Source: Planctomycetales bacterium
Lineage (GTDB): Bacteria > Planctomycetota > Phycisphaerae > SM23-33
Assembly: GCA_030612725.1 (NCBI GenBank)
Contig: JAUWNJ010000030.1
Location: 1-40,019, forward strand
Length of the DNA: 40,019 nt
Direction of reading: 5' to 3'
In this document: positions 18,200 through 32,603 of the stretch, piece after piece
Layout: each line of letters opens with the position of its first letter
Numbering within the stretch: the stretch's first letter is position 1
The notes under the pieces: model-generated
The model's database searches: none
What the model was told of the DNA's origin: nothing
What the model saw: only the letters and a program-made list of their open reading frames with translations
Program-made: the position numbers and the translations under genes

Positions 18200-18409
18200 A
18201 TGAGGAGACTTACCTGAGGTTTTACCGTAATAAAGCAACCGTCCTCATTTATTCCATTATCCCGCTTTAGGTAAGTCTGATATACTTGCGTTTCGTCGGA
18301 AGCCTCATAGCGGCCGACGTTGGTATAGTCAAAGCCTCCGATAAAGTGAGTGTGAATCGGTGTGTGGTTTTGGCGCAAAAGCCCATTCAGGCGTAGCACG
18401 GGAGAAGTT
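18200..18409 (+). promoter_or_regulatory. Long structured 5' leader of the secretion locus
   Basis: About 210 bases without a gene between promoter and first ATG. AGACTTACCT (18206-18215) is complementary to AGGTAAGTCT (18269-18278), and the pairing extends inward with G-U pairs to about 15. A second stem is CGTCGG with CCGACG (about 18294-18319), a third CCGAT with ATCGG (about 18338-18360), and GGC/GCC close a small hairpin near the ribosome site. Multiple stems suggest a regulatory leader. I could not match it to a c-di-GMP, cobalamin or other known riboswitch consensus. Confidence 0.4.
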
Positions 18410-20107
18410 ATGGCCAGGAAGAAAAAGCGGCTTGGCGAGATACTTATTGAATGGGGGGTTATAACATCTGCGGGCGCGGATGAGGCGATTGCACACGCTC
18501 TCCATGAAAGATTGCGGATCGGCGAGTCGCTGGTGTCGCTTGGTCTGGCCGACGAGGAGGACGTAACCAAGGCCTTGGCGACGCAGTTTGACATGGAGTA
18601 CGTTGATCTTGAGCGTCAGAAGATAGTTCCTAATCTTCTGGAGGCAATTCCGCCGGACATTATTCGCCGGCATCTTATTCTTCCGATAAAACGTGAGGGT
18701 AATCGTCTCAAAGTTATTATTACCGACCCGCTTGACCTTGAAACGCTGGATATGCTCCGGTTCAGGATGAATGCGGAGATTGATTGCGCCCTTGCTTCGA
18801 GGACCAAGCTTCGGGATTTTATCGAACGATTCGTCGGATCGGACGTGAGTATTGATGAGACGCTCCATCAGTTAGAGGATAACACGACGTCGAATGTTGA
18901 ATCCGATGTGGACGTGGAAACCGAGGGCGCACCGGTAATTCGCCTGGTAACGATGCTGATAACCGAGGCTGTGAATCTGCGCGCCAGCGATATTCACATC
19001 GAGCCGATGTCCAACCGTATCCGTGTGCGATATCGGATCGACGGCGTCTGCCGAGAGAGGGACAACATACCCAAACGGATGCAGGGGCCGGTGATTAACC
19101 GTCTCAAAATCATGTCCGGAGTTGACCTCACCGAGAAGCGCCTTCCGACCGACGGTCGAATTACAATGATTATCGGCGGGTCGGATATTGATTTTCGCGT
19201 CAGTTTCATTCCGGGGTATCACGGTGAAAGCTGCGTATTGCGTATTCTCAGGCCTGAAAGCGCGCGTATGGGAATCGAGGCGTTGGGTTTCGAGGAGGAT
19301 GACGCGGCGCGATTTCATCGTATCATCAAGCGCCCCAATGGGATATTCCTCGTTACGGGTCCGACAGGTTCGGGTAAGACAACCACGCTGTATGCGGCAT
19401 TGAACGAGTTGAACCGTCCCGACCGAAAGATTATCACGGCAGAAGATCCTATCGAATATAACTTTACGGGGATTAATCAGTGCCAGGTCAACGAGACGAC
19501 CGGTTTGACGTTCTCCAGGATACTTCGTGCTATGTTGAGGCAGGCTCCCAATATCATTCTTGTTGGTGAAATTCGCGACCTGGAGGTTGCTGAGGTCGCA
19601 ATTCAGGCCGCTCTTACAGGACACCTGGTTTTCAGTACACTTCATACCAACGATGCACCCAGCGCATTGACCCGTCTTATTGACATCGGCGTGAAACCGT
19701 TCCTGGCGGCCAGTTCTATCCAGGCGGTAATGGCCCAGCGACTGGTCCGCGTAATATGCGAGGAATGCAGGGAAATCGACCCGAGTCCGGATATGAAACT
19801 TCTTCAGGTGCTCGGTTTCAGCGACGAGGAGTTGCACAATGCAACTGTTTATCGTGGAGCGGGTTGCGCTGCGTGCGGGGGAAGCGGATATCGAGGAAGG
19901 CTTGCTATTTTTGAACTGATGGAGATGAATAACGCCTTGGCTGAAATGGCGATAAAACGCGCCCCGTTGAGCGAAATGAGGCGAGAGGCCCGAGCATCGG
20001 GAATGAGGTCCCTCCTGGAGGATGGGCGGAGGAAGATATCCAAGGGAATAACCACGCCGGAAGAACTGATCAGGATTACACAAGTTTCGGAATTGGCAGT
20101 GGACTGA
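18410..20107 (+). CDS. gspE: GspE/PilB-family assembly ATPase (first copy)
   Basis: 565-residue hexameric ATPase that drives pseudopilus or pilus assembly from the cytoplasmic face. N-terminal MshEN/T2SSE-N domain: RLGEILIEWGVIT, then RIGESLVSLGLADEEDVTKALATQ, resembling the motif that binds c-di-GMP in MshE-type ATPases. Core motifs: ASDIHIEP (~190), Walker A GPTGSGKTTT (~317), Asp box EDPIEY, Walker B ILVGEIRD (~383), His box GHLVFSTLHTNDAPSA. The zinc knuckle CEEC...CAAC (~465-500) is complete, as in GspE/PilB and unlike PilT. ATG 18410 has GGAG 5 bases upstream; the longer frame adds an unrelated leader. Head of the locus. Confidence 0.93.
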   Translation: MARKKKRLGEILIEWGVITSAGADEAIAHALHERLRIGESLVSLGLADEEDVTKALATQFDMEYVDLERQKIVPNLLEAIPPDIIRRHLILPIKREGNRLKVIITDPLDLETLDMLRFRMNAEIDCALASRTKLRDFIERFVGSDVSIDETLHQLEDNTTSNVESDVDVETEGAPVIRLVTMLITEAVNLRASDIHIEPMSNRIRVRYRIDGVCRERDNIPKRMQGPVINRLKIMSGVDLTEKRLPTDGRITMIIGGSDIDFRVSFIPGYHGESCVLRILRPESARMGIEALGFEEDDAARFHRIIKRPNGIFLVTGPTGSGKTTTLYAALNELNRPDRKIITAEDPIEYNFTGINQCQVNETTGLTFSRILRAMLRQAPNIILVGEIRDLEVAEVAIQAALTGHLVFSTLHTNDAPSALTRLIDIGVKPFLAASSIQAVMAQRLVRVICEECREIDPSPDMKLLQVLGFSDEELHNATVYRGAGCAACGGSGYRGRLAIFELMEMNNALAEMAIKRAPLSEMRREARASGMRSLLEDGRRKISKGITTPEELIRITQVSELAVD

Positions 20108-20244: not shown

Positions 20245-21384
20245 ATGGCTACCTTGCATATTGACCGACTTTTAGAGACTTGTATCAAACGCGGTGCCAG
20301 CGACTTGCACTTGCATGTAGGGCGTGCTCCGACTCTTCGTCTTCATGGTCGTCTTCGTTCGCTTGAAACGAAGGTTCTGGAACCGGCCGATACCGTAGCG
20401 TTGATGAAGGCAATTACTCCCGAACGCGCCCAGCAGGAACTTCAGGAAGAGGGCGGGACAGATTTCGGTTTTGCCTTTGGTGATGAAGGGAGGTTCCGCG
20501 TCAGCGTTTTTCACCAGCGTGGAAATATCTCACTGGCCTTGCGGCTTATTCCCAGCAAGTTGTTCACCTTCGATGAGATAGGATTACCATCAATCGTCAA
20601 GAGTCTTTGTCGTCGTCCCAGGGGTCTTTTCCTTGTTACGGGTCCGACCGGATCGGGCAAAACCACCACGATGGCGACGATGATTGACTATATCAACCGT
20701 AATTTCGACAAGCACATAGTTACCGTTGAGGACCCGATTGAGTATTACCATTCGCACAAGAAGTCGATGATCAACCAGCGTGAGGTTGGTGTGGACGTAC
20801 CGAGTTTTTCCGAGGCATTGAGGCGTGTGTTGCGTCAGGACCCTGACGTGATCCTGGTCGGCGAGTTGCGTGACCTGGAGACGATGGAAGCGGCGATTCG
20901 TGCAGCCGAGACCGGGCACCTTGTCTTCGGGACGTTGCATACCACCAGTGCGCAGGGGACTGTAACTCGAATTTCCGAGCAGTTCCCCGTCAATCAGCAG
21001 AACCAGATCAGGATACAGTTGGCTTCTACGCTCATTGCCGTTCTTTGCCAAACGCTGATACCACGTGAGGACGTTCGCGGGCGAGTGGCTGCTTATGAGT
21101 TCATGGTTGTTACCGGTGCGGTATCCAACCTGATCCGCGAGAACAAGGTTTTCCGTATTCCTTCTACCATTCAGACGGGTAAAAAATTCGGGATGCAGTT
21201 ACTGGATGAGCACTTGTTCCGCCTGGTTTGTAAAGGAACAATTTCCGCCGAAAATGCTGTGGAACAGGCACAGAGCCCGGGACAGTTGCAGGACAAGATC
21301 GAGGGCTTCCAGAAGGGTCAAATTGCCAGACCTGAAGAGCCTGTCGATCCCGGCGCACAGGAAGATGCCGTTTTCAGGAGTTAG
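20245..21384 (+). CDS. pilT: PilT-family retraction ATPase
   Basis: 379 residues, slightly longer than typical PilT (~345-370). The compact N-terminal PAS-like domain (LLETCIKRGASDLHLHVGRAPTLRLHG) and the absence of the long MshEN domain and zinc knuckle set it apart from its GspE-type neighbours. Walker A GPTGSGKTTTMA (~133), Asp box VEDPIEYYH, Walker B DVILVGELRD (~202), His box GHLVFGTLHTTSAQGT. The AIRAAETGHLVFGTLHT segment is the PilT form. It should power pilus disassembly; its presence between two assembly ATPases argues for a dynamic pilus-like fibre rather than a plain type II secretion system. AAGGA before the ATG; 3-base gap to the next gene. Confidence 0.93.
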   Translation: MATLHIDRLLETCIKRGASDLHLHVGRAPTLRLHGRLRSLETKVLEPADTVALMKAITPERAQQELQEEGGTDFGFAFGDEGRFRVSVFHQRGNISLALRLIPSKLFTFDEIGLPSIVKSLCRRPRGLFLVTGPTGSGKTTTMATMIDYINRNFDKHIVTVEDPIEYYHSHKKSMINQREVGVDVPSFSEALRRVLRQDPDVILVGELRDLETMEAAIRAAETGHLVFGTLHTTSAQGTVTRISEQFPVNQQNQIRIQLASTLIAVLCQTLIPREDVRGRVAAYEFMVVTGAVSNLIRENKVFRIPSTIQTGKKFGMQLLDEHLFRLVCKGTISAENAVEQAQSPGQLQDKIEGFQKGQIARPEEPVDPGAQEDAVFRS

Positions 21385-21387
21385 CCA

Positions 21388-23148
21388 ATGGTCACGGAAA
21401 CGATACAACAGGATGTGAACGTTGCCGAACTTCAAGGCCGGCCTATAGGCAGGGTCATGGTGAAGATGGGCAAACTGACCCGCGAGCAGGTACACGAGGC
21501 GCTGGGTATCCAAAAAGAAAAGGGCGGGCCCATCGGTCAGATAATGATCGACATGGGTTACATTGTCCCAACCACTCTGGTTCTTGCTTTGGCTTTCCAG
21601 GCTGGGATGGAGTATGTGGACCTGGAAAAAGTCGATGTTCCCGACGATGTTATCAAGATGGTTTCCGCCCAGATGGCCAATGCCTATAAATTGATCCCTC
21701 TGGAGTACGACGATGCGGATAAGCGATTGACGGTGGCATTGGGTTCTGCGGATAATTTCCACGCTACCGACGACATGCGAACGCTGATGGGTATTGACGT
21801 CGTAGCCAAGATTACCGCCCCGGAGATGCTGGAGCGGGCATTGCACAAGTATTACGACGTCGAGCCTGAGTCCATCGGAGAATTAATCAACGAAATTGCC
21901 GGCGATGAGCAATTGACCGCGCTGGAGAATCGCGGAGAAAGCATCGACCTGGAGACCATCAGGGAAGCAGCCGATTCCAATCCCATTCGACGATTGGTCA
22001 ACATGGTGCTGCTCCAGGCGATACGCGACCGCGCCAGCGACATCCACTTCGAACCGTTCGAGAACGAGTTCAAGATTCGCTATCGTATCGACGGGTTGTT
22101 GTATGAGATGGTCCCTCCGCCCAAGTCGATTGCATTGGCAATCGCCAGTAGAATCAAAGTAATGGCCGATCTTGACATCGCCGAACGCCGCCTTCCTCAG
22201 GACGGACGAATCGAACTTGTCGTCAACGGTCAACCGGTGGATTTGCGTATCAGCGTGCTCCCGACAATGTTCGGCGAGAGCGTCGTGATGCGTGTACTGG
22301 ACCGAAGCCAGGTCAGTCTCGACCTGGAACAGGTAGGTTTCCGCGAGGACGACCTGCGGGTTTTCCGTCAATTGATAAACCGCCCCAACGGAATATGCGT
22401 CGTTACGGGTCCGACCGGTTCGGGTAAGACCACTACGCTGTACTCGGGTCTGAACGAGTTGAACGATGTCGCGGTCAAGATACTCACCACCGAAGACCCC
22501 GTCGAATATGACATTGACGGGCTGATTCAGGTGCAGATAAACGACGCTATCGGTTTGACTTTCGGGCGGTGTTTGAGGTCTTTTCTCCGACAGGACCCTG
22601 ACATTATCCTGGTCGGCGAAATCCGCGACCTCGAAACGGGCGAGATAGCGATACAGGCGTCATTGACCGGTCATATGGTCTTTTCGACGTTGCACACCAA
22701 CGACGCACCGTCTTCCATTGCTCGTCTTCTGGATTTGGGTCTGGAGCCTTATCTGATTACAGCGACGCTGGAGGGAATAGTAGGTCAGCGTCTGGTGCGT
22801 CGTATCTGTCCGAGGTGCAGGGAGGAATTCACACCTACTGAAGAGATGCTCATGGAACTGCAACTTCGTCCGGAAAACGTGGTTGGAAAGACGTTCTTCC
22901 GGGGTAACGGATGCGATTACTGTCGTGGGACCGGTTACAGCGGGCGAACGGCCATTTTTGAGATTATGTTGCTGGATGACAATATCCGCGGGTTGATTAC
23001 CAGTCGCGCCAGTACCAATGCGCTTCGTGAAGCCGCCCGTCGCCGTGGTATGCGGACGCTGCGCGAAAGCGGATTACTGTTGATATATGATGGGGTTACA
23101 ACGATCGAAGAGGTCGTTTCCCAGACGATCTATGAGGAAATGGAATAA
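21388..23148 (+). CDS. gspE: GspE/PilB-family assembly ATPase (second copy)
   Basis: 586 residues. Two MshEN-like repeats at the N-terminus (PIGRVMVKMGKLTREQVHEAL; PIGQIMIDMGYIVPTTLVLALAFQ), then ASDIHFEPF (~225), Walker A GPTGSGKTTTLY (~341), EDPVEYDIDG, Walker B IILVGEIRD (~410), GHMVFSTLHTNDAP, and a complete zinc knuckle CPRC...CDYC (~475-515). In its MshEN repeats the RLG of the first paralogue is replaced by PIG, so any nucleotide sensing may differ. PilB and GspE cannot be told apart by eye. It starts 3 bases after the pilT stop with CAGGAG upstream, so translation is probably coupled. Confidence 0.93.
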   Translation: MVTETIQQDVNVAELQGRPIGRVMVKMGKLTREQVHEALGIQKEKGGPIGQIMIDMGYIVPTTLVLALAFQAGMEYVDLEKVDVPDDVIKMVSAQMANAYKLIPLEYDDADKRLTVALGSADNFHATDDMRTLMGIDVVAKITAPEMLERALHKYYDVEPESIGELINEIAGDEQLTALENRGESIDLETIREAADSNPIRRLVNMVLLQAIRDRASDIHFEPFENEFKIRYRIDGLLYEMVPPPKSIALAIASRIKVMADLDIAERRLPQDGRIELVVNGQPVDLRISVLPTMFGESVVMRVLDRSQVSLDLEQVGFREDDLRVFRQLINRPNGICVVTGPTGSGKTTTLYSGLNELNDVAVKILTTEDPVEYDIDGLIQVQINDAIGLTFGRCLRSFLRQDPDIILVGEIRDLETGEIAIQASLTGHMVFSTLHTNDAPSSIARLLDLGLEPYLITATLEGIVGQRLVRRICPRCREEFTPTEEMLMELQLRPENVVGKTFFRGNGCDYCRGTGYSGRTAIFEIMLLDDNIRGLITSRASTNALREAARRRGMRTLRESGLLLIYDGVTTIEEVVSQTIYEEME

Positions 23149-23399: not shown

Positions 23400-24662
23400 A
23401 TGGCTACTTACCATTATGAAGCTATGAACAGTGTCGGCCAGAGCGTTAAAGGCGATGTCGATGCCGTCAGTAACGAGGAAGCGGTCTCCAAAATCCGTGG
23501 GATGGGGCACTTTCCCACGAAGGTCAAAGAGCGTTCGGGTGGTCGAAAATCGGCTTCGGCCGCCGCTGCTGCTACCGGTGTCGGGCCGGCAGCGGCGCCC
23601 AAACGTCGAACGGTGGGAAGAGTTCCCGCGAAACTGTTGACGCAGTTCGCCAGGCAACTTTCTACACTTCAGGACGCCGGATTACCGTTGCTGCGAAGCC
23701 TGAGAATCCTTGAAGAGCAGCAGAAACCGGGAATGCTCCGAATAGCCATTCGTCTTGTGGCTGAAGACGTCGAGGGAGGCGCTACGCTTTCCGAGGCAAT
23801 GGCAAAACATCCCAAAGCCTTCGATAAACTCTTTACCAACATGGTCGCCGCCGGTGAAGCCGGTGGCGTGCTCGACGTGGTCCTTCGCCGATTGGCCGAC
23901 TTTATGGAAGCGTCGCAGAAACTCAAACGAAGGATAATCGGCGCGATGGTGTATCCCGCTGTGGTTATCTCCGCTGCTATTGGGATCGTCATGGGGATTA
24001 TGATATTCATTATTCCCAAGTTCATGGACATCTTTGACCAGTTCGGTGCCGGCAATCTCCCCGCCCCTACCCTGTTGCTCATGAAAATGTCCGGCTGGCT
24101 CACGAAGGAGTGGGGATGGGCGTACATACTGGCTTTTCCGTTGGCGTTGTTCATTATTTTCAGGTTGCTTCGCATGTCCGACGGTGGGCGGTATTTTGTC
24201 GATTCACTGAAACTGAAGATTCCGGTAATGGGCAAGATATTAGCCAAAACGGCGGTGTCGCGATTTACCCGAACGCTCGGGACGCTGCTGACGGCGGGTG
24301 TGCCGATTCTTGAAGCCATTAACATTACACGCGAGACGAGCGGAAACGAGGTCTTCGCCAAGGCGCTCAAGAAGGTCCACGACGGAATCCGTGAGGGCGA
24401 CGACTTCGCCGCTCCGTTGCGACAGGCAAAGATCGTAGAACCGATGGTAGTCAATATGATAGACGTCGGCGAGGAAACAGGCGACCTGGATAAAATGCTC
24501 TCCAAAGTCGCCGACACCTACGACGAAGAGATTCAGACGATGGTGGCGGCTATGGTCTCGCTGCTGGAACCGGTGATGGTTATCACGCTGGGTGTAATCG
24601 TCGGGTTTATCGTCGTCGCTATCTTCATGCCGCTACCCAAACTTATTTCATCGGTAAAATAA
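23400..24662 (+). CDS. gspF: GspF/PilC-family inner membrane platform protein
   Basis: 420 residues, the normal size. N-terminal cytoplasmic segment (MATYHYEAMNSVGQSVKGDVDA) with an Ala-rich linker (~50-70), then two T2SSF domains: the first from LTQFARQLSTLQDAGLPLLRSL, the second from FTRTLGTLLTAGVPILEAI, each followed by the GE.GG/GE.TG turn (AAGEAGGVLD; DVGEETGDLDKML). Three membrane helices at ~180-203, ~243-260 and ~390-412. It forms the base on which the ATPases act and recruits pilin subunits. AAGGA about 10 bases upstream of the ATG. Confidence 0.95.
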   Translation: MATYHYEAMNSVGQSVKGDVDAVSNEEAVSKIRGMGHFPTKVKERSGGRKSASAAAAATGVGPAAAPKRRTVGRVPAKLLTQFARQLSTLQDAGLPLLRSLRILEEQQKPGMLRIAIRLVAEDVEGGATLSEAMAKHPKAFDKLFTNMVAAGEAGGVLDVVLRRLADFMEASQKLKRRIIGAMVYPAVVISAAIGIVMGIMIFIIPKFMDIFDQFGAGNLPAPTLLLMKMSGWLTKEWGWAYILAFPLALFIIFRLLRMSDGGRYFVDSLKLKIPVMGKILAKTAVSRFTRTLGTLLTAGVPILEAINITRETSGNEVFAKALKKVHDGIREGDDFAAPLRQAKIVEPMVVNMIDVGEETGDLDKMLSKVADTYDEEIQTMVAAMVSLLEPVMVITLGVIVGFIVVAIFMPLPKLISSVK

Positions 24663-24866: not shown

Positions 24867-25673
24867 ATGATAAGACATTCTGGGAAATTCGGGGCTACCG
24901 GCGAATGCAAAAATGCCGCCTTCACGCTCGTCGAACTGCTTGTGGTGATCAGTATAATGGCGCTACTGATAGGGATACTGCTCCCGACCCTTTCAGGCGC
25001 TCGCAAGGAAGCGGCAAATATCAAAACCGGCGCTCGCATATCCGAACTGTCCGGCGGATGCATTATGTACTACAAAACACACGGGTACTATCCAGGCCAG
25101 CAGTATTCCGGCGAATTGGGAAGCAACAGCGACAGTAAATTCACAGGTAGCCAGTGGTTGGCCAGGTCGCTCTTCAGCGACTTCAACAACTCGGCTGTCC
25201 AGGTCGACCAGAGGTATCCCTTGTCACGGTATGCTCCGGTAAAACCTGCTGATGATCTCATCGAACCCAATTACAGCGCAACCATAGATATTGATGGGAC
25301 TGGTTACAAGTTCGAGTTCGGAACAATCTCTGACCAAAACAAATCTTCCAAAACCAGAGAGGTTCTACCAATCCTGTATTATCCCGCCCGTCCGGGCGAA
25401 AGCGGGCTGGCGCAGTACCAGATGAGCGACAATTCCGATTACAAGAACGATGCCGGGGGTAACATCGTTTGGAAATGGAAAACCTCGGATGGAGTGGAAC
25501 ACAGCGGCGACGACCAGGCAGCCTTTGAGAACTACATCAAGGACCGGCGGTTTCAGAGCGACGCCAGCACGACGCCGTACAATCCCGGAGCGTTCCTGCT
25601 TATCGCCGCCGGGAGGGACCGCGTCTTCGGTACCGGCGACGATCTTCGTTACCCCACGTTCAAGAGCGATTGA
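24867..25673 (+). CDS. Prepilin-like protein 1 (type II pseudopilin family)
   Basis: 268 residues. Leader MIRHSGKFGATGECKNAA, then the processing motif FTLVELLVVISIMALLIGILLP with Glu at +5 and the long hydrophobic helix that anchors the subunit in the inner membrane and packs the fibre core. Residue -1 is Ala instead of the usual Gly. The C-terminal domain is soluble and Tyr/Asp-rich, with LLIAAGRDRVFGTGDDLRYP near the end, reminiscent of the calcium-binding loop of major pseudopilins. The start at 24867 is chosen because the longer frame begins inside an intergenic repeat. Four-base spacing to the next prepilin gene. Confidence 0.85.
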   Translation: MIRHSGKFGATGECKNAAFTLVELLVVISIMALLIGILLPTLSGARKEAANIKTGARISELSGGCIMYYKTHGYYPGQQYSGELGSNSDSKFTGSQWLARSLFSDFNNSAVQVDQRYPLSRYAPVKPADDLIEPNYSATIDIDGTGYKFEFGTISDQNKSSKTREVLPILYYPARPGESGLAQYQMSDNSDYKNDAGGNIVWKWKTSDGVEHSGDDQAAFENYIKDRRFQSDASTTPYNPGAFLLIAAGRDRVFGTGDDLRYPTFKSD

Positions 25674-25676
25674 GAA

Positions 25677-26450
25677 ATGAACACAAAGCGAGACATTTTA
25701 CGAAAATCGCACGGATTCGTTGAGAAATCCGCAATTCCTGCCTGCCTCCGGCAGGTAGGCAGGCGCAATCCACAATCCGCGATTGGTTTTACGCTTGTTG
25801 AACTATTGGTGATTGTCTCGATTATTGCGCTTCTTGTAGGGATGCTCCTGCCGACACTGAATAAATTTCGCGATGTGAGCAGGAAGGCGAAAACCCGGGC
25901 AATCATCAGCATGATTGACGGTGCGTGCCAGCAGTATTTCACCGATTTTGAGGACTATCCCCCAAGCCAGGACAACGACGACTACAACGGATGGACCGGA
26001 AGCGAGTTGATAACGTTGTTCCTGACGGGCTATGGCCCTGACAAGAACGACGACGGCATACCTGATGTTGCTAATCTGGATACCGACGACGGCGTTGACG
26101 GTTTCGGCTTCCGCCTGGAGCATCGGGGATGGGTGTATGGTCAGTACGGCGTGGAGAAACTGGACACACGCATCAACATCAGGCCTGAATTCGTCGATGC
26201 GAGGTTAGGAGAATCCGGGGGCAACCCGATACTGTACTACCGCTGGACAGGGTCGCGATACAATGCTTCGCACAATACCAACGGCCCGGGAGACGGTAGT
26301 CAAGCCATTCTGGACGAATACGTCAGGGACGCCGATGGAGGAGCGTATTACCGGACCGATTTTATCCTGATCAGCAGGGGGCTTAACGGAGATTGGGACG
26401 AAGCGGGTGGTGCAGAGAACGACGATGTTACAAACTTCTTTAATAGATAA
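25677..26450 (+). CDS. Prepilin-like protein 2, with repeat-encoded leader
   Basis: 257 residues. The processing motif G|FTLVELLVIVSIIALLVGMLLP begins at residue 38. The preceding 37 residues are long for this class, and residues ~20-36 are encoded by dispersed repeat DNA. The globular part is Asp/Gly-rich: DKNDDGIPDVANLDTDDGVDG could be a calcium-binding region. The end ILISRGLNGDWDEAGG corresponds to the C-terminal loop seen in the other prepilins here. It shares overall plan with prepilin 1, so the two are probably paralogues. Confidence 0.85.
   Translation: MNTKRDILRKSHGFVEKSAIPACLRQVGRRNPQSAIGFTLVELLVIVSIIALLVGMLLPTLNKFRDVSRKAKTRAIISMIDGACQQYFTDFEDYPPSQDNDDYNGWTGSELITLFLTGYGPDKNDDGIPDVANLDTDDGVDGFGFRLEHRGWVYGQYGVEKLDTRINIRPEFVDARLGESGGNPILYYRWTGSRYNASHNTNGPGDGSQAILDEYVRDADGGAYYRTDFILISRGLNGDWDEAGGAENDDVTNFFNR
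25737..25787 (+). repeat. Two repeat modules inside the leader of prepilin 2
   Basis: A CCTGCC / GGCAGG palindrome (25737-25763, hairpin with TCC loop) followed directly by AATCC(A/G)C heptamers (25766-25781). Together they encode residues ~20-36 of the leader and end two bases before the codon for the -1 Gly. Confidence 0.75.
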
Positions 26451-26487
26451 CCCGCCTACCTACTGAAGGTGGGCAGAGAGGTTTCCG

Positions 26488-27012
26488 ATGAAAAGCAACG
26501 CTTTACATTCCGTTCAAGGGTGGCACAGGTTTGCAACCTGTGTACGCCGCACAGGTTACAAATCTGTGCCACGGGGTTTCACGCTGGTGGAGATGCTTGT
26601 GGTGATAAGCATCATTGCCATTCTGGTTACGATTGTTGTGGGTGTTACTCATATAGTTCTCGCCAGGGCGTCAGCCGAGGAGACCAGAACCAATATGCAG
26701 GTAATCCTCCAGGCGATTGAAGCCTTTCGCGAGACCGACGAAACTAATGACTATCCACCATCGACCGCAGGAACCCCTGATGATCACAACGCCAAACTGT
26801 ACAAGGCGCTGAAAGACAATCCTGCCGCCAGGAAGATACTGGGGCCTCTTCCCGATGATGCGATTAGGGGCGACAGATTCGTGGACGGCTTTGGGATGAG
26901 GATGGATTACAGTTCCGACGGTGGCGTCGGAGGAGCACCGGTGCTTATCTCCGCCGGAGCCGACAGCGACTTCGGCACGGCACAAGACAACATTCGTTCG
27001 GATAACCAATAA
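26488..27012 (+). CDS. Prepilin-like protein 3 (GspG-like major pseudopilin)
   Basis: 174 residues, close in size and layout to GspG. G|FTLVEMLVVISIIAILVTIVV starts at residue 31, then a helical arm (RTNMQVILQAIEAFRETDE) and a small beta domain with NDYPPSTAG, LDP-like KILGPLPDDAIRGDRFVDGFG, and ISAGADSDFGTAQDNI at the end, matching the SxGxDG...DDI signature of major pseudopilins. This is the best candidate for the main fibre subunit. The leader is repeat DNA; a GTG at 26566 would give a short leader (MPRG) but has no ribosome site. GAGAGG precedes ATG 26488 by about 8 bases. Confidence 0.88.
   Translation: MKSNALHSVQGWHRFATCVRRTGYKSVPRGFTLVEMLVVISIIAILVTIVVGVTHIVLARASAEETRTNMQVILQAIEAFRETDETNDYPPSTAGTPDDHNAKLYKALKDNPAARKILGPLPDDAIRGDRFVDGFGMRMDYSSDGGVGGAPVLISAGADSDFGTAQDNIRSDNQ
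26521..26571 (+). repeat. 22-bp inverted repeat inside prepilin 3 leader
   Basis: Arms 26521-26542 and 26550-26571 (outer TGGCACAG, inner AACCTGTG) are complementary at 20 of 22 bases around a 7-base loop. The stem forms within the first 28 codons of the gene and stops two bases before the codons for RGFTLVE. In mRNA it would form a strong hairpin about 30 bases after the start codon. Confidence 0.85.
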
Positions 27013-27014
27013 CT

Positions 27015-27836
27015 ATGAAAAAGCGATCGGACAATCAGTCCACGGATTACCCGCCTTCGCCAGGCTACGGTGTGGCAAGCACAGATTACACGGATTTTGA
27101 ATCCGGGCAATCCGCAATCCGCAATCCGCAATCCACAATCAGGCCGGCGTTCACGATTATCGAATTGCTGGTGGCTATTTCCATAATATCGCTGGTGTTG
27201 ACGATCACGATGCCGGGGATAATCAAGCTGTTCACCGCCGGTACGGACCTCCAGTCGCGGAACGTCATAAGCGGGATGCTTGGCGCTGCCCGCGCCGCCG
27301 CCATCGAAAACCAGTCGTACGCGGGCGTGCACGTGCAGATCGGTACCGATGGGAAATGCTGGGCGGCGGTGATGCAATTAGACAAAGTCTCCGGTAAGTT
27401 TGTTCCCGTCAGTGGTTTCCCCCCGAAATCAATGCCGGGAGATATGGCCTTCGGGGGGATTTCATCCGATTACGTTTCGGGTAGTCATTATACAAACGAC
27501 GTCAACACTGACCGGGATGGGTTTACCACCTTCAACGTAATCTTCAGCCCGGACGGTTCACTGACCGGCCGGGTTAACGGTAACCTTCCTCAAATCGAGA
27601 CGGACGTGAAGATTTTCGGTGGGGACGGCGCTACGCCGAAGCAGAAAATATGGGAACCTTGTCTTCCTGCCGGCACCGGTCCTACTCTTGATGAGGACGG
27701 TGTTCGCGCGATAACGGCATTTCATTATAAAACGTTTAAGGTGATGCCGGACAGACAGTCCTGGCTTGAAAAGAACGGACAATTTTTGTGCATCAACCCC
27801 TATACAGGCAAACTACTGCCGGATGAGCAGGAATAA
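27015..27836 (+). CDS. Prepilin-like protein 4 (GspH-like)
   Basis: 273 residues. A|FTIIELLVAISIISLVLTITMPGI at residue 46, then ISGMLGAARAAAIENQSYAGVHVQ, the helix-strand arrangement of GspH/FimT minor pseudopilins. The 45-residue leader contains MKKRSDNQSTDY, a segment GYGVASTDY and QSAIRNPQSTI, the last encoded by AATCCGC heptamers. Residue -1 is Ala. The ATG is 2 bases after the previous stop and lacks a Shine-Dalgarno, so it likely depends on coupling. The stop overlaps the next ATG (TAATG). Confidence 0.85.
   Translation: MKKRSDNQSTDYPPSPGYGVASTDYTDFESGQSAIRNPQSTIRPAFTIIELLVAISIISLVLTITMPGIIKLFTAGTDLQSRNVISGMLGAARAAAIENQSYAGVHVQIGTDGKCWAAVMQLDKVSGKFVPVSGFPPKSMPGDMAFGGISSDYVSGSHYTNDVNTDRDGFTTFNVIFSPDGSLTGRVNGNLPQIETDVKIFGGDGATPKQKIWEPCLPAGTGPTLDEDGVRAITAFHYKTFKVMPDRQSWLEKNGQFLCINPYTGKLLPDEQE
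27107..27140 (+). repeat. AATCCGC heptamer array inside prepilin 4 leader
   Basis: Four to five copies of the 7-bp unit AATCCGC, with the last varied to AATCCAC. Read in frame as QSAIRNPQSTI, ending three codons before the processing site. Same family as 18043-18064. Confidence 0.85.
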
Positions 27837-28000
27837 TGAAAAAGCAATCGAACAATCAGTCCACGGAATACCGGAATACCGGAATACCGAAAACAGGGAC
27901 TAGGGACTTGGGACTTGGGACTTGGAAAAAAAGGAAATCCGCAATCCGCAATCCGGCTTCGCCAAAAGGCTACGCCGTGACAAGTCCACAATCCGCAATC
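27836..28000 (+). repeat. Composite of several repeat families forming prepilin 5 leader
   Basis: In order: a 37-bp near copy (34 identical) of the first 37 bases of prepilin 4; three GGAATACC units (27865-27889); three GGGACTTG-like units (27896-27925); AATCCGC heptamers (27936-27955); a GGCTTCGCC...GGCTACG(C/G)(C/T)GTG module (about 27955-27980) also found at 27053-27078; heptamers again (27983-28000). The open frame is kept through all of them. Confidence 0.8.
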
Positions 28001-28693
28001 AAACGAACGGGTTTTTCGCTGGTGGAACTGATGATGTCGCTGGGCATCTTGGTGGTGGGGCTGTCGATGGTCGCAACCGCATTCCCTACTGCCATGCTGG
28101 CGACCAAATTATCCGTCGCCGACACCTCGGCCACGATGATCTCTGAAAACGCAATCTCCATCTGCCGGGTAAGGCTCTCGCACAATACCATTAAAGGATT
28201 GGGCGGAGCCCTTTGGGACGGTACCCCGCTGATCGGCGAGGCTCACACTGGTGATTTGACCTATCCGGTCGCCCATGGCACCACCGGCGCCCATCCGGAT
28301 GATTGGGTCGAAATCCCATCGGGCAGCGGTACGTGGTTTCCGCCAATCCGTTACGGTTGGCTTCTGGCTGCCCGCCAGATGAAAAGTGTCAATTGTAATG
28401 ATTATCAACTGGTCATCGTGCCTTATCGCAAGTTCCTGCCGGGAGACGCGGCGCCTGCATTTTCGACCGTTTCCACCGACGGAAACAAGATAACGTCCGG
28501 AAACGTCAGCATCGGAGCGCCGGTGATATGCAGAGCCAATGATAACGATGGTGGTAAATATGCTTTCGTTGTTGATTCAGATGGTACTCTTTCCCGTACG
28601 ATTCCCCCCGGAGAGGCTTTGACCGTAGGCCCGGACGGGCGGAATTCACCCGCGATCGGGTGTTACGTGGTTCGCACAGCCGTGGCGCCTTAG
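27836..28693 (+). CDS. Prepilin-like protein 5 (GspI/GspV-like)
   Basis: 285 residues. G|FSLVELMMSLGILVVGLSMVATAFP at residue 60; the LGILVVGLSMVA helix and the Met-rich start recall GspI/PilV minor pseudopilins. The 59-residue leader is exceptionally long and consists almost entirely of repeat modules: a near copy of the prepilin 4 start (MKKQSNNQSTEY), GGAATACC units, GGGACTTG units, AATCCGC heptamers, a GYAVTSP module, and heptamers again. The ATG overlaps the stop of prepilin 4. The C-terminal half is beta-rich with no recognised motif. Confidence 0.85.
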   Translation: MKKQSNNQSTEYRNTGIPKTGTRDLGLGTWKKRKSAIRNPASPKGYAVTSPQSAIKRTGFSLVELMMSLGILVVGLSMVATAFPTAMLATKLSVADTSATMISENAISICRVRLSHNTIKGLGGALWDGTPLIGEAHTGDLTYPVAHGTTGAHPDDWVEIPSGSGTWFPPIRYGWLLAARQMKSVNCNDYQLVIVPYRKFLPGDAAPAFSTVSTDGNKITSGNVSIGAPVICRANDNDGGKYAFVVDSDGTLSRTIPPGEALTVGPDGRNSPAIGCYVVRTAVAP

Positions 28694-28794
28694 AACGCGA
28701 ATTAGGCGAATAAAACGAATTACGCTAATAGAAAAAGAAACAACAGAACGTAGGTAGAAAGAAACAAAAAAAGATTATCTATGAGATTTCTTTT

Positions 28795-29802
28795 ATGAAC
28801 ATGACGACAGGACATTCTGACTTTGCGCATCCGAATCCGCAATCGGTAATCCGCAATCCGCAATCCGCAATCCGCAATCTGTCTGCTGCGTTTACGCTCG
28901 TGGAACTGATGGTCTCGATGACTATCCTGACGGCTATCATTCTTGTCGTCAGCACACTGCTGACTAATGCACAGCGGGCTGTGAATCTGTCCCAGAGCAC
29001 CATTACCGCCGACGCCGATGCCCGTACGGTCGTGGAGCGGATTCGTGCAGACCTGGCCGGACTGACCACTGAAGGTTTCCTTGCAATATACACCGATACC
29101 AACGGCAGGCAGCATCTGGTCTTCACCGCCGTCGGGCCGTATAAAAGCATGATCGATTCAACCATCGCCAACGCCGCCCGGATAGACTATGGACGGACCG
29201 GAACCTCCAATAAAAACGTCCTATGGCGACGGGCGACGCTGCTAAACGCCGAAAGCGCCGCAGCCACTACCAACGACCACGAAAAAATATCCCTGGCCGA
29301 GTATAAAGTCTGGAGCCGGAAGGATTTTGACTACGCACTGTACAACGAGGTTGTCGGACCGCCGAGGCAGTATGATTGGCCTGTCGGAGGCACAGTGTGG
29401 TTCGATTGTTTCACCAATATGCCGTCGATTCCGCTTCCGCCCAACAGTCTCGCGGACCTGGAAAAGCTCTGGCCTTACCTGGCGAGACCATGCCGGAACC
29501 TGAAAATAGAATGGGCCGACGGAGAATGCGACGCCACCACCAAAATGCTCATCTGGTACAACTCGGACGCGGCGAAAAAACCTGATGATTGGAAAAATCG
29601 CGATGCCGTGTATCAGGATACCCATCCGTCCCAAGATGCCGCCGAATATAATGTGGAATTGGCCGCGGGCGGCGAGAGGTATTGTGCCCTATGGACATAC
29701 AGGAAGAAAGACAACTGGCCACTGGCGCTGCGAATAACCTTTGAACTGGGTACGGGTGAAACAGCCCAGACATACGAGGTAATCGTGGACCTGCCACGGT
29801 AA
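28795..29802 (+). CDS. Prepilin-like protein 6 (GspJ-like)
   Basis: 335 residues. A|FTLVELMVSMTILTAIILVVSTLL at residue 33, then ADADARTVVERIRADLAGL and a beta-rich domain with HLVFTAVGPYK and YNVELAAGGERYCALWTYRKK, the plan of the GspJ/PilW minor pseudopilins, which cap the fibre with GspI and GspK. The leader contains NPQSVIRNPQSAIRN from heptamer repeats. A 101-base gap to prepilin 5 holds CGAATTA-type repeats. No good Shine-Dalgarno is seen before ATG 28795. Followed by a dispersed repeat and the GspK-like gene. Confidence 0.85.
   Translation: MNMTTGHSDFAHPNPQSVIRNPQSAIRNLSAAFTLVELMVSMTILTAIILVVSTLLTNAQRAVNLSQSTITADADARTVVERIRADLAGLTTEGFLAIYTDTNGRQHLVFTAVGPYKSMIDSTIANAARIDYGRTGTSNKNVLWRRATLLNAESAAATTNDHEKISLAEYKVWSRKDFDYALYNEVVGPPRQYDWPVGGTVWFDCFTNMPSIPLPPNSLADLEKLWPYLARPCRNLKIEWADGECDATTKMLIWYNSDAAKKPDDWKNRDAVYQDTHPSQDAAEYNVELAAGGERYCALWTYRKKDNWPLALRITFELGTGETAQTYEVIVDLPR
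28833..28879 (+). repeat. AATCCGC heptamer array inside prepilin 6 leader
   Basis: About six units of AATCCGC, one altered to AATCGGT, read as NPQSVIRNPQSAIRN. The array ends five codons before the processing site. Confidence 0.85.
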
Positions 29803-29804
29803 AA

Positions 29805-29948
29805 AATCCAAATAGCAAAATATAAATTCCAAACAAATTCAAAATCACAAAGTTCAATGACAAAAGACAATTGCGACGATGACTTTTTCTGTTTGGTTAT
29901 TGTTTTTTGAGATTTGTTTGGGATTTGAGATTTGTATTTTGGATTTTA
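29805..29948. repeat. AT-rich imperfect inverted repeat before the GspK-like gene
   Basis: The left half has AAAATCCAAATAGC and AAATTCCAAACAAATTC; the right half has TTGAGATTTGTTTGGG and TTGTATTTTGGATTTT, complementary with interruptions. It fills the gap between prepilin 6 and the GspK-like gene and creates a spurious N-terminal extension of the latter. Confidence 0.7.
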
Positions 29949-29966
29949 AAGGAAGAGAGGTGTACG

Positions 29967-32603
29967 ATGGTTAAAAGAACTGATTATCATCGAAAAGGTT
30001 CTGTTATCGTAATGGTGGTGGGTCTGCTGGTGATGCTGGCGATGATTGGCACGACGTTTATCATCGTCGCCAACATGGACCGCAGAGAGTCCCGCAGCAT
30101 AGCCACTGCCGCTCCCATGAAACAGGTGGCAGGCGGAGTGCTTCAGCAGATACGCGCCAAACTCGCCGCAGACCTCCACATCGACATAGCCGGCGTAATC
30201 TACGGCTCTGCCGCCGATTACAAACAACAAGTCGATTACCCACACGAAGATTACGACAGACACCTGGCAAGTTTCGACCCTGCCGCTGGCGGGTTCTGGA
30301 AGCACCTCAGCAATATCTACAATCGTCCTGCCATTGAAGTTGAAGACATACTGGCCTGGGACCCTTTGCTGGTTGATACCGACGGGTATGGTTGGGGCGA
30401 TGCGAAATTGTATCCTTCGGGCGTTACTAACCGTGCGGGGCAAGAGTATTACGTTGCCGTCCGTATCATCGACGCCTCAGGCCTGATGAACATCAACTCC
30501 GCCTATTCGACTTCCGCCGCTGTCTCTGGGGTCGTCATGCCGGTAACCAATATCTCGCTGGAGGATCTGACCAATACAGCCACACGCGACAACGTCCATG
30601 AGGGTAATGATCGCGGAACCCCTGCCCCCGCCACCGCTGACGACATTATTGGTCGCAATGGCGGCGCCGGCAGCGGTGACAACATCGCAACGTACAATGC
30701 TCATTACGTCCAGAGACCACTCAACCCCGGGAGTAATGCCTACCGTCCGTTTGAGATGTCCGATATGCTGGCGCTGACTTGGGGCTGGAATATCCCTGAT
30801 ACCGCCTCCGGTCGGCTTTGGGAGGCATTGAAATTGGACGGTACCGGACAGTTCGACGCTGCCAAACCATATCTTACCGTTCACTCGGCCTCACGCGATT
30901 ACATCCGTCGAGCCGTCGGAATCCAGAATACGACCCACAGGGTCAATCTTAACATCGCCGGTTTCGAGGATTTATTCAATGCCTTCTATAACGCCATTCC
31001 CGAAGGCATCGTCGGATTCACTGACGACGATAACGCCCGACGAGTCGTAGCCGCTCAACTGGCAGTCAACGTCATCGACTACCGTGATGACGACGAGACG
31101 ACGTATGTGCCTACCCCTGCTTTAATGACGTCGGTGAAGCTCAGTGGCGTCAAGCTCTTCGGCATTGAACGTCAACCTTTCATCACCGAATTGTTCTACA
31201 AGGTGTACAAGGTCAGCGAGGCCCCCGACGTCTATAACCGTTATTCTGCTATCGAGTTGTTTAATCCTTATAAGACCGACATAAGTATCGTGGGTTTCAA
31301 ACTTACCGAGGGCGGAACGGAAAAGACTCCCACCGGTGGCTGGCCCGATGTAAACATTTCACCCGGCAGGCGAATTGTAATTGTTTCGGACAACGCGACC
31401 ATACCGGTTCATGCCGACGTCGAAAGGGTTCTTGTTATTCCGGGTTTGGACCTTGATAAGGGCATTATAATATATCGCTCGCGTAAAAGTGATGGAACCG
31501 GCCCCGCTAGCGACAAGGACGTTCCGCTGGGGGACGCCACAGTTAATGTGGCTGACCCAGACCTGGGTTTCTCAAGCATGGTAGTCTTTCAGAGGGATGA
31601 TGTTCCATCCCACGCCAAGTATTCCATTGACGTGACAAATTCGTTTAACGACGTGGATTATACTAATACAGATGGCGGCGGAATGACTGCCGGAAATACA
31701 AACCTCGGCAAAGCCAATGATAATTATACTTGCAAAGCAGTTACCGACGCCAAACCGACGCCCGTCTTCGTCCGCAACGGTAATCTGATTAACCTTGGCG
31801 ACGTCTCTCGAATCTTCTACGTCGGGCCGTCCAGTAGCGGTGTACCGCTGGACAAGGCCCTTGCGTTGTCGCCGACCAATGTTTCCAACGGTCGGCTGAG
31901 CACGTCTGGTGAGATTTTACTCGGCACGGACCCGCAAATTCCACCTGCCTGTATGCTCGGCGATTACATGGATGTGCTCGCGCCGGACCCGAATAACGGA
32001 AGGCCCGGTACGGTCTATGGTAGAATTAATATCAATACCGCGCCCTGGCAGGTGATTCAGCACCTTCCGGGTATCAGCACAATGACGACCGATATTGGCG
32101 GCGGGAAAATGATGCGCGAGCGCATAGCCAAGGACATCGTCGCCTACCGCGATCTGCTCAATAACGCTCTGGGCGGAACGGACTATTCTATTCTCGTGGC
32201 CCCGCGGGAAATCGCTACGGGTCTGGTTAACCTGCGGGAAGATGAAGGTTTTGCCAGTCCGGGTGAGATCGCCGTACCATTGGCGAAGATCATTACTCCC
32301 ATGCCAAGGAACATCTACGGCAACTTTGCTCCCAACTGCTACAAAATAACCGACAGCGGCACCGGCGACGACGGGCTTGATGAAATTACCGACGACCTGA
32401 GCAAGTACGAAATCTATTACTCCTGGCTTAGCAATCAAATTACTGTAAGGTCCGACGTGTACATCGCTTACATCCGCGTCCAGGTCGGTGGCGACCCCGC
32501 CCCAACCGGCCCCGTTCGCAAATACATTGCCGTCATCGACCGAAGCAACTGCACTTCAATCAACGACCTGCCCAACGAGCTGATGTTCGCAGAATTGAAG
32601 TAG
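29967..32603 (+). CDS. GspK-like large minor pseudopilin
   Basis: 878 residues, far longer than GspK of E. coli (~330). A prepilin-type start KGSVIVMVVGLLVMLAMIGTTFIIV (~10-34) lacks Glu at +5, as GspK does. VRIIDASGLMNINSAYS (~155) matches the D-x-x-x-x-NIN block of GspK, and a second YGRININTAPWQVIQHLPGI (~685) followed by helices matches the helix-hairpin-helix-like part, so the two halves of the GspK alpha-domain are separated by some 500 inserted residues. The insertion includes a lamin-tail-like segment (YSAIELFNPYKTDISIVGFKL) with a following beta-rich region. It would sit at the fibre tip. GGAAGAGAGG lies 6 bases before ATG 29967. Confidence 0.82.
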   Translation: MVKRTDYHRKGSVIVMVVGLLVMLAMIGTTFIIVANMDRRESRSIATAAPMKQVAGGVLQQIRAKLAADLHIDIAGVIYGSAADYKQQVDYPHEDYDRHLASFDPAAGGFWKHLSNIYNRPAIEVEDILAWDPLLVDTDGYGWGDAKLYPSGVTNRAGQEYYVAVRIIDASGLMNINSAYSTSAAVSGVVMPVTNISLEDLTNTATRDNVHEGNDRGTPAPATADDIIGRNGGAGSGDNIATYNAHYVQRPLNPGSNAYRPFEMSDMLALTWGWNIPDTASGRLWEALKLDGTGQFDAAKPYLTVHSASRDYIRRAVGIQNTTHRVNLNIAGFEDLFNAFYNAIPEGIVGFTDDDNARRVVAAQLAVNVIDYRDDDETTYVPTPALMTSVKLSGVKLFGIERQPFITELFYKVYKVSEAPDVYNRYSAIELFNPYKTDISIVGFKLTEGGTEKTPTGGWPDVNISPGRRIVIVSDNATIPVHADVERVLVIPGLDLDKGIIIYRSRKSDGTGPASDKDVPLGDATVNVADPDLGFSSMVVFQRDDVPSHAKYSIDVTNSFNDVDYTNTDGGGMTAGNTNLGKANDNYTCKAVTDAKPTPVFVRNGNLINLGDVSRIFYVGPSSSGVPLDKALALSPTNVSNGRLSTSGEILLGTDPQIPPACMLGDYMDVLAPDPNNGRPGTVYGRININTAPWQVIQHLPGISTMTTDIGGGKMMRERIAKDIVAYRDLLNNALGGTDYSILVAPREIATGLVNLREDEGFASPGEIAVPLAKIITPMPRNIYGNFAPNCYKITDSGTGDDGLDEITDDLSKYEIYYSWLSNQITVRSDVYIAYIRVQVGGDPAPTGPVRKYIAVIDRSNCTSINDLPNELMFAELK

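Follow-up and report, generated by a model that had tools for sequence, protein, structure and literature searches.

The window analysed here, the 40,019 nucleotides of contig JAUWNJ010000030.1 of Planctomycetales bacterium (assembly GCA_030612725.1, Phycisphaerae), carries six consecutive prepilin genes, A to F, and the leader peptides of five of them are largely written in dispersed repeat DNA. In this planctomycete family the prepilin leaders are probably permissive, cytoplasmic, cleaved peptides that accumulate dispersed repeats as in-frame insertions. They are reproducible hot spots of such insertion, and more generally so than a first-pass annotation of the window had supposed. That annotation's proposal of the leader as a safe landing site is well supported: the same genes with the same starts carry species-specific repeats ahead of a conserved mature part, the frame is kept, and a second genus shows the same pattern with a different repeat family.

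Repeats in the prepilin leaders

The home genome (G000) comprises 3.16 Mb in 65 contigs, of which the window is contig C34, and it was compared with three genomes of the same genus, Planctomycetales bacterium CSMAG_432 (G002), CSMAG_1454 (G001) and CSMAG_3057 (G003). Leader length was counted up to the residue preceding the F[TS]x[VI]E-type motif. The prepilin genes and their repeats are as follows.

24867..25673, + strand: prepilin A; N_methyl match (PF07963, E=2.9e-6); 18-residue leader, repeat-free here
25677..26450, + strand: prepilin B; under the Pfam cut-off, GspG-like and N_methyl-like; 37-residue leader MNTKRDILRKSHGFVEKSAIPACLRQVGRRNPQSAIG followed by FTLVELL; orthologues in three congeners
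25737..25784, + strand: leader B repeats; CCTGCC..GGCAGG palindrome and AATCC[AG]C units (AATCCAC/AATCCGC); no later start codon before the motif
26488..27012, + strand: prepilin C; PF07963, E=3.5e-8; 30-residue leader; conserved AGAGG before the start; start region kept in four species
26520..26572, + strand: leader C insert; CACAGGTT double palindrome or hairpin, an inverted repeat 91% complementary
27015..27836, + strand: prepilin D; PF07963, E=1.2e-4; 45-residue leader with CACGGATT, CTTCGCCAGGCTACG-type and heptamer repeats
27092..27140, + strand: leader D repeats; CACGGATT-type repeat and heptamer array (heptamers 27106-27140)
27836..28693, + strand: prepilin E; TIGR02532 above cut-off; 59-residue leader; ATG overlapping the stop of D (TAATG)
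27864..28000, + strand: leader E composite; GGAATACC three times, GGGACTTG three to four times, heptamers, GGCTTCGCCAAAAGGCTACG, heptamers
28795..29802, + strand: prepilin F; PF07963, E=3.7e-5; 32-residue leader; MN.TTGHS start kept in congeners
28831..28879, + strand: leader F repeats; heptamer array

The first-pass reading of these leaders stands: five of the six are 30-59 residues long, B to F are mostly composed of the repeats it had named, in the places it had given, while A is free of them, and the repeats run in frame to just before the motif, ending 1-4 codons ahead of it. The 3.16-Mb genome has 62 occurrences of the heptamer 18-mer AATCCGCAATCCGCAATC and none of its reversed control. 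Because the AATCCGC unit is free of stop codons in whichever of the six frames it is read, its being in frame in a single genome is weak evidence, and it is the test of frame between species that carries the weight.

Probable translation and conservation of the frame

All six genes begin at an ATG with flanks that are conserved in the four species, e.g. TTCAAGAG..ATTGAGAA-ATG for B and GATTTCTTT-ATGAAC for F. Orthologues of the operon were located by use of its GspK-like gene as a marker, which found a match in 41 of 60 relatives. Six genes in four congeneric species give 24 leaders, with these lengths in nucleotides (window, G002, G001, G003):

leader A: 54, 126, 264, 66
leader B: 111, 153, 162, 108
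leader C: 90, 90, 90, 33
leader D: 135, 54, 285, 309
leader E: 177, 123, 78, 159
leader F: 96, 168, 138, 126

All 24 (11-103 residues) have a length that is a multiple of three and contain no stop. At least 16 distinct length changes are required, every one a multiple of three, an outcome with a probability of (1/3)^16 = 2e-8 without a frame constraint. Between the repeats and the motif there is no ATG, GTG or TTG in B and F of the window, in B, D and E of locus L085, in E and F of L086, or in B of L087. Both ends of leader E are conserved (MKKQSNNQ...SAIK..G), its MKKQSNNQ start being identical in the orthologues. True starts close to FTLVEL, the circumstance that the first-pass annotation had named as fatal to its reading, are excluded for many leaders by the lack of a start codon after the repeats, and the conserved starts, lengths in multiples of three, missing downstream starts and conserved ends together exclude them as far as sequence allows. 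The leaders are thus very probably translated.

Turnover of repeats between species and genera

The check on close relatives that had been suggested for this locus came out as proposed: across the four congeners the mature pilins are 56-96% identical, while the leader repeats vary in family, number and presence. Gene C of G003 (L087) has an empty site, MKRSTLHSVRG|FTLVEM, and the CACAGGTT double palindrome lies exactly there in the other three species. Gene A, repeat-free in the window, has repeat leaders of 42 residues in G002 and 88 residues in G001. In a second genus (G024) the leaders of the operon carry CTACCGG-type and other repeats, the CTACCGG-type unit being scattered over that genome with 107 matches (control, 0), and a third repertoire is found in the leaders of G032. 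Several other genera of the family have ordinary leaders, and the habit of long repeat leaders is patchy.

Repeat leaders also occur outside the operon, in the home genome at C50:24577, C59:103636 and partly C63:11814, and in G003 at C130:640, where orthologues are without that repeat. A second, paralogous pilin locus of G002 (C196, L141) has repeat-built leaders too, MLGKNKIRNLQSAIRNPQSAIG for A' and 90 residues for B'. The prepilins L007 (home C63:11814-11960) and L137 (G003 C52) have a doubled motif, e.g. MKKSRKAFTLVELPFDRLRTIRKCKGKAFTLVELLVV, and a similar G002 gene (L104) has a single one; the doubled forms may reflect insertion of a repeat together with duplication of the motif at the cleavage site.

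Peptide properties and orientation of the repeats

Type III signal peptides have hydrophilic leaders of variable length that end in Gly or Ala before a hydrophobic helix and are cleaved on the cytoplasmic side by prepilin peptidase (PMC10191384). Gly/Ala at -1, followed by F[TS]x[VI]E and a hydrophobic helix, is present in all six genes of the window, and among the orthologues every one of the 24 leaders ends in Gly/Ala, the motif beginning with M in one. Hydropathy is negative in 24/24 and net charge is negative in none. The hydrophilicity, charge and Gly/Ala end of the leaders match, by their predicted sequences, the requirements for such a signal peptide (PMC10191384). Read in the sense direction the repeats encode hydrophilic peptides (SAIRNPQ, GTRDLGL, NQSTSQPV), and the reversed heptamer encodes IADCGLR. 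The ratio of sense to antisense repeats is 16:17 in co-directional intergenic DNA, from which both the leaders (9:0, p = 0.006) and all coding sequences (26:5, p = 0.004) differ. An AlphaFold model of precursor E with four orthologues has a predicted local distance difference test score (pLDDT) of 34, too low to be informative on disorder of the leader.

Density in leaders, intergenic DNA and other genes

Within an 836-kb sample of stretches of the home genome, the share of base pairs taken up by repeats is 16.3% in leaders, 8.3% in intergenic DNA and 0.24% in other coding sequences; of the 9711 repeat bp, 7666 are intergenic. In G024, with the repeats defined without the pilin contig, the corresponding values are 12.6%, 9.8% and 0.33%. 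Density in leaders is accordingly about 68-fold that of other coding DNA in the home genome and 38-fold in the second. If a gene start is counted as repeat-carrying at 20 repeat bp or more, 5 of 20 leaders qualify versus 8 of 663 other genes (Fisher p = 1.4e-5), and 2 of 14 leaders versus the same 8 of 663 when this operon is left out (p = 0.016). Among the eight non-leader starts, several were probably called wrongly, the gene being extended through repeats that lie upstream of it, which makes the contrast conservative. Equal frequency of the repeats in other coding regions, which would have spoken against a special role of leaders, is thus not found at the level of density.

Exclusivity of the repeats to leaders, on the other hand, was rejected. 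The earlier statement that they otherwise lie outside genes holds within the window and fails genome-wide, as the same repeats are present in frame inside TrpA, QueC, LeuS, ProS, an ObgE-CoaX fusion and a few others. The genes were named from recognisable sequence, and TrpA and QueC were confirmed against solved structures. Heptamer, GGGACT or other repeats are carried by the following housekeeping enzymes.

LeuS: G000 C31:163094-166288
ProS: C58:16014-17786
ObgE-CoaX: C43:83726-85495
QueC: L216
TrpA: L212

The heptamer insert of TrpA is absent in G003, and G002 has a different insert at the same spot; in alignments with solved relatives, the inserted segments of TrpA and QueC face a gap or residues that match poorly. 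The leaders are a hot spot of a wider phenomenon that resembles the Rickettsia palindromic elements (RPE). In two paralogous proteins of 720-770 residues (home C57:50750-52909 and C5:53045-55363) an antisense heptamer array, VLDCGLRIADCGF, occupies the same internal position, and this insert may be older than the duplication.

Proposed explanation and its alternatives

Repeats would arrive everywhere at similar rates by a copying process, and selection would remove most of the insertions in genes. Those in leaders would survive if the frame is kept, no stop is introduced, the Gly/Ala-F[TS]xxE junction stays intact and the peptide is hydrophilic, since the leader must remain in the cytoplasm. 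Prepilin peptidase would remove the extra residues, and with these cleaved off the pilus would be unaffected. Modules in some leaders may have come from other leaders, or several leaders may have drawn on one dispersed element.

Several points weigh against this account. Most other prepilins in the same genomes have leaders of 5-20 residues, and permissiveness is not uniform; the coding sequences behind the densities were called with a simple codon model rather than taken from curated annotation; the congeners are related, so that the 24 leaders are not 24 independent cases; and processing of the leaders is predicted from the motif and the presence of the peptidase. Translation of the repeat leaders is strongly indicated, and the repeats in them are presumed to be neutral.

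Spread of leader segments mainly by recombination between prepilin genes seems unlikely, even though some modules do suggest it. The 21-nt ATACCTAWGGCACAGGTCCGC has 5 copies in the 4.2-Mb genome of G032, and 4 of them are in the leaders of three genes of one operon, but the fifth lies elsewhere. Leaders A and D of G001 share 189 nt at 87%, a match that reaches beyond the dispersed element of ~150 nt contained in it, the other copies of which mostly reach no more than 83%, and 68 identical nt are common to leader E of the window and leader A of G002. However, the genomes contain dozens of other copies of both the E composite and the G001 element, and most of the sharing can accordingly be put down to a common dispersed source. 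The exchangeable modules of the first-pass annotation are thus retained in part, for the G032 module and the G001 A/D segment, while other modules are dispersed with many intergenic copies. The ~150-nt element itself is palindromic and resembles a miniature inverted-repeat transposable element (MITE); matches to it number ~45 in G001 and 12 in each of G000 and G002, and it lies in frame in leaders A and D of G001 C370 (L132). A stronger version, in which the leaders are a dedicated reservoir, repeats pass between the leaders of one operon as swappable modules, and long leaders private to a species tune prepilin targeting or processing, is quite unlikely.

It is improbable that the leaders are former intergenic spacers that became translated, repeats included, when tight packing pushed the starts to the preceding stop. 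Starts do lie close against the preceding stop, with an overlap at D/E (TAATG) and 2-3 nt between A and B and between C and D, and repeat density in leaders equals that of intergenic DNA. But the insert of gene C sits between conserved residues of an ordinary 11-residue leader, F has a repeat leader despite a spacer of ~100 nt, and the start flanks are conserved in four species, which dates the changes in the repeats to a time when the start already existed.

A role of the repeats as mRNA structures that govern how each subunit is translated or its stability, and hence stoichiometry, as had also been suggested, is very unlikely and is not supported by the folding. In three species leader C has a strong predicted fold (z -3.1, -6.1, -3.4) and there are large palindromic elements in leader D of G001 and G003, but the structure is not conserved by gene: G003 lacks the C hairpin, A, D and F of the window give z of -0.1 to +1, and several others are near zero. 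The leaders match no Rfam family. A conserved RNA element was therefore rejected, the strong folds of C (three species) and D (two) arising from different elements.

That the repeats are untranslated 5' DNA left open by the stop-free heptamer, with the real starts near the motif, is scarcely credible and was rejected; the longest-open-reading-frame rule did stretch several other genes through upstream repeats, but the absence of ATG, GTG or TTG after the repeats in many leaders, the multiples of three over at least 16 length changes, the codons conserved at both ends and the orientation bias all oppose it.

Insertion into a permissive, cleaved leader, the explanation preferred here, makes long in-frame repeat leaders a site within genes where selfish or junk DNA can be parked. 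They offer a natural experiment on selfish repeats entering coding DNA, since the leader holds them at intergenic density and the mature protein a few codons later holds almost none. Provided that they are hydrophilic and have Gly/Ala at the end, prepilin leaders can apparently reach great length with little constraint on sequence, a point of relevance to substrate recognition by prepilin peptidase and to the automatic calling of start sites.

The operon and its spacers

The remaining genes of the operon are listed below.

18362-20107, + strand: T2SSE ATPase; Pfam PF00437, far above cut-off
20245-21384, + strand: PilT-like T2SSE; PF00437, far above cut-off
21388-23148, + strand: T2SSE ATPase; PF00437, far above cut-off
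23400-24662, + strand: T2SSF; PF00482, far above cut-off
29967..32603, + strand: GspK-like large minor pseudopilin; ordinary leader, repeat-free

With three T2SSE ATPases, T2SSF, the six prepilins and the GspK-like protein, the operon is by its predicted products a type II secretion system or type IV-like one. Assembly ATPase and platform protein (T2SSF) are encoded within it, and two matches to A24 prepilin peptidase lie elsewhere in the home genome, two being found in each of the four congeneric genomes. The spacer before the GspK-like gene (29803-29966) is an A/T-rich inverted repeat common to G003 (L087 5720-5880), with other sequence in its place in G001 and G002. The spacer before prepilin C (26451-26475) has a CCCGCCTACC...GGTGGGC repeat, longer in G003 and missing in G001 and G002, and AGAGG/GGAGG ahead of the ATG is retained despite these differences (window, L085 and L132 compared).

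Comparison with known systems

Within the open-licence literature no published account of these repeat strings or of repeat-built prepilin leaders was found. RPE inserted in protein-coding genes were described in Rickettsia by Ogata et al. (2000, 2002), as reviewed in passages of PMC10969869 and PMC2229807, the latter noting that a Gmk product carrying an RPE is translated and active. Those passages describe no hot spot of RPE in leaders or signal peptides. As with RPE, dispersed small repeats are here inserted in frame into conserved genes with the reading frame open through the repeat; their copies are mostly intergenic, and orthologues free of the repeat exist. Unlike RPE, palindromes of ~100-150 bp with terminal inverted repeats and a conserved peptide, the inserts are mostly arrays of 7-8-nt units of mixed families; only some are palindromic (leader C; A and D of G001), and on these described features the inserts are not classed as RPE.

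ERIC, Correia/NEMIS and YPAL/RU-2, MITEs that a passage of PMC2229807 reports as fused to open reading frames, are likewise intergenic repeats that also occur in frame in genes. The Yersinia element cited there forms part of the predicted signal peptide of YPO1552 and creates a putative new exported protein, whereas the repeats described here repeatedly lengthen an existing, presumably cleaved leader in orthologues. Like type IV prepilin leaders, including the long T4b-type ones, the present leaders are hydrophilic, of variable length and end in Gly/Ala before the helix (PMC10191384), their cleavage being predicted; unlike them they reach 59 residues in the window and 103 in a congener, and the extra length consists of dispersed repeats that vary between species. 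The repeat-built leaders thus appear to be a variation on known in-frame repeat insertion that resembles the RPE phenomenon in another lineage, and they extend insertion of the Rickettsia type to uncultured planctomycetes, TrpA, QueC, LeuS and ProS included.

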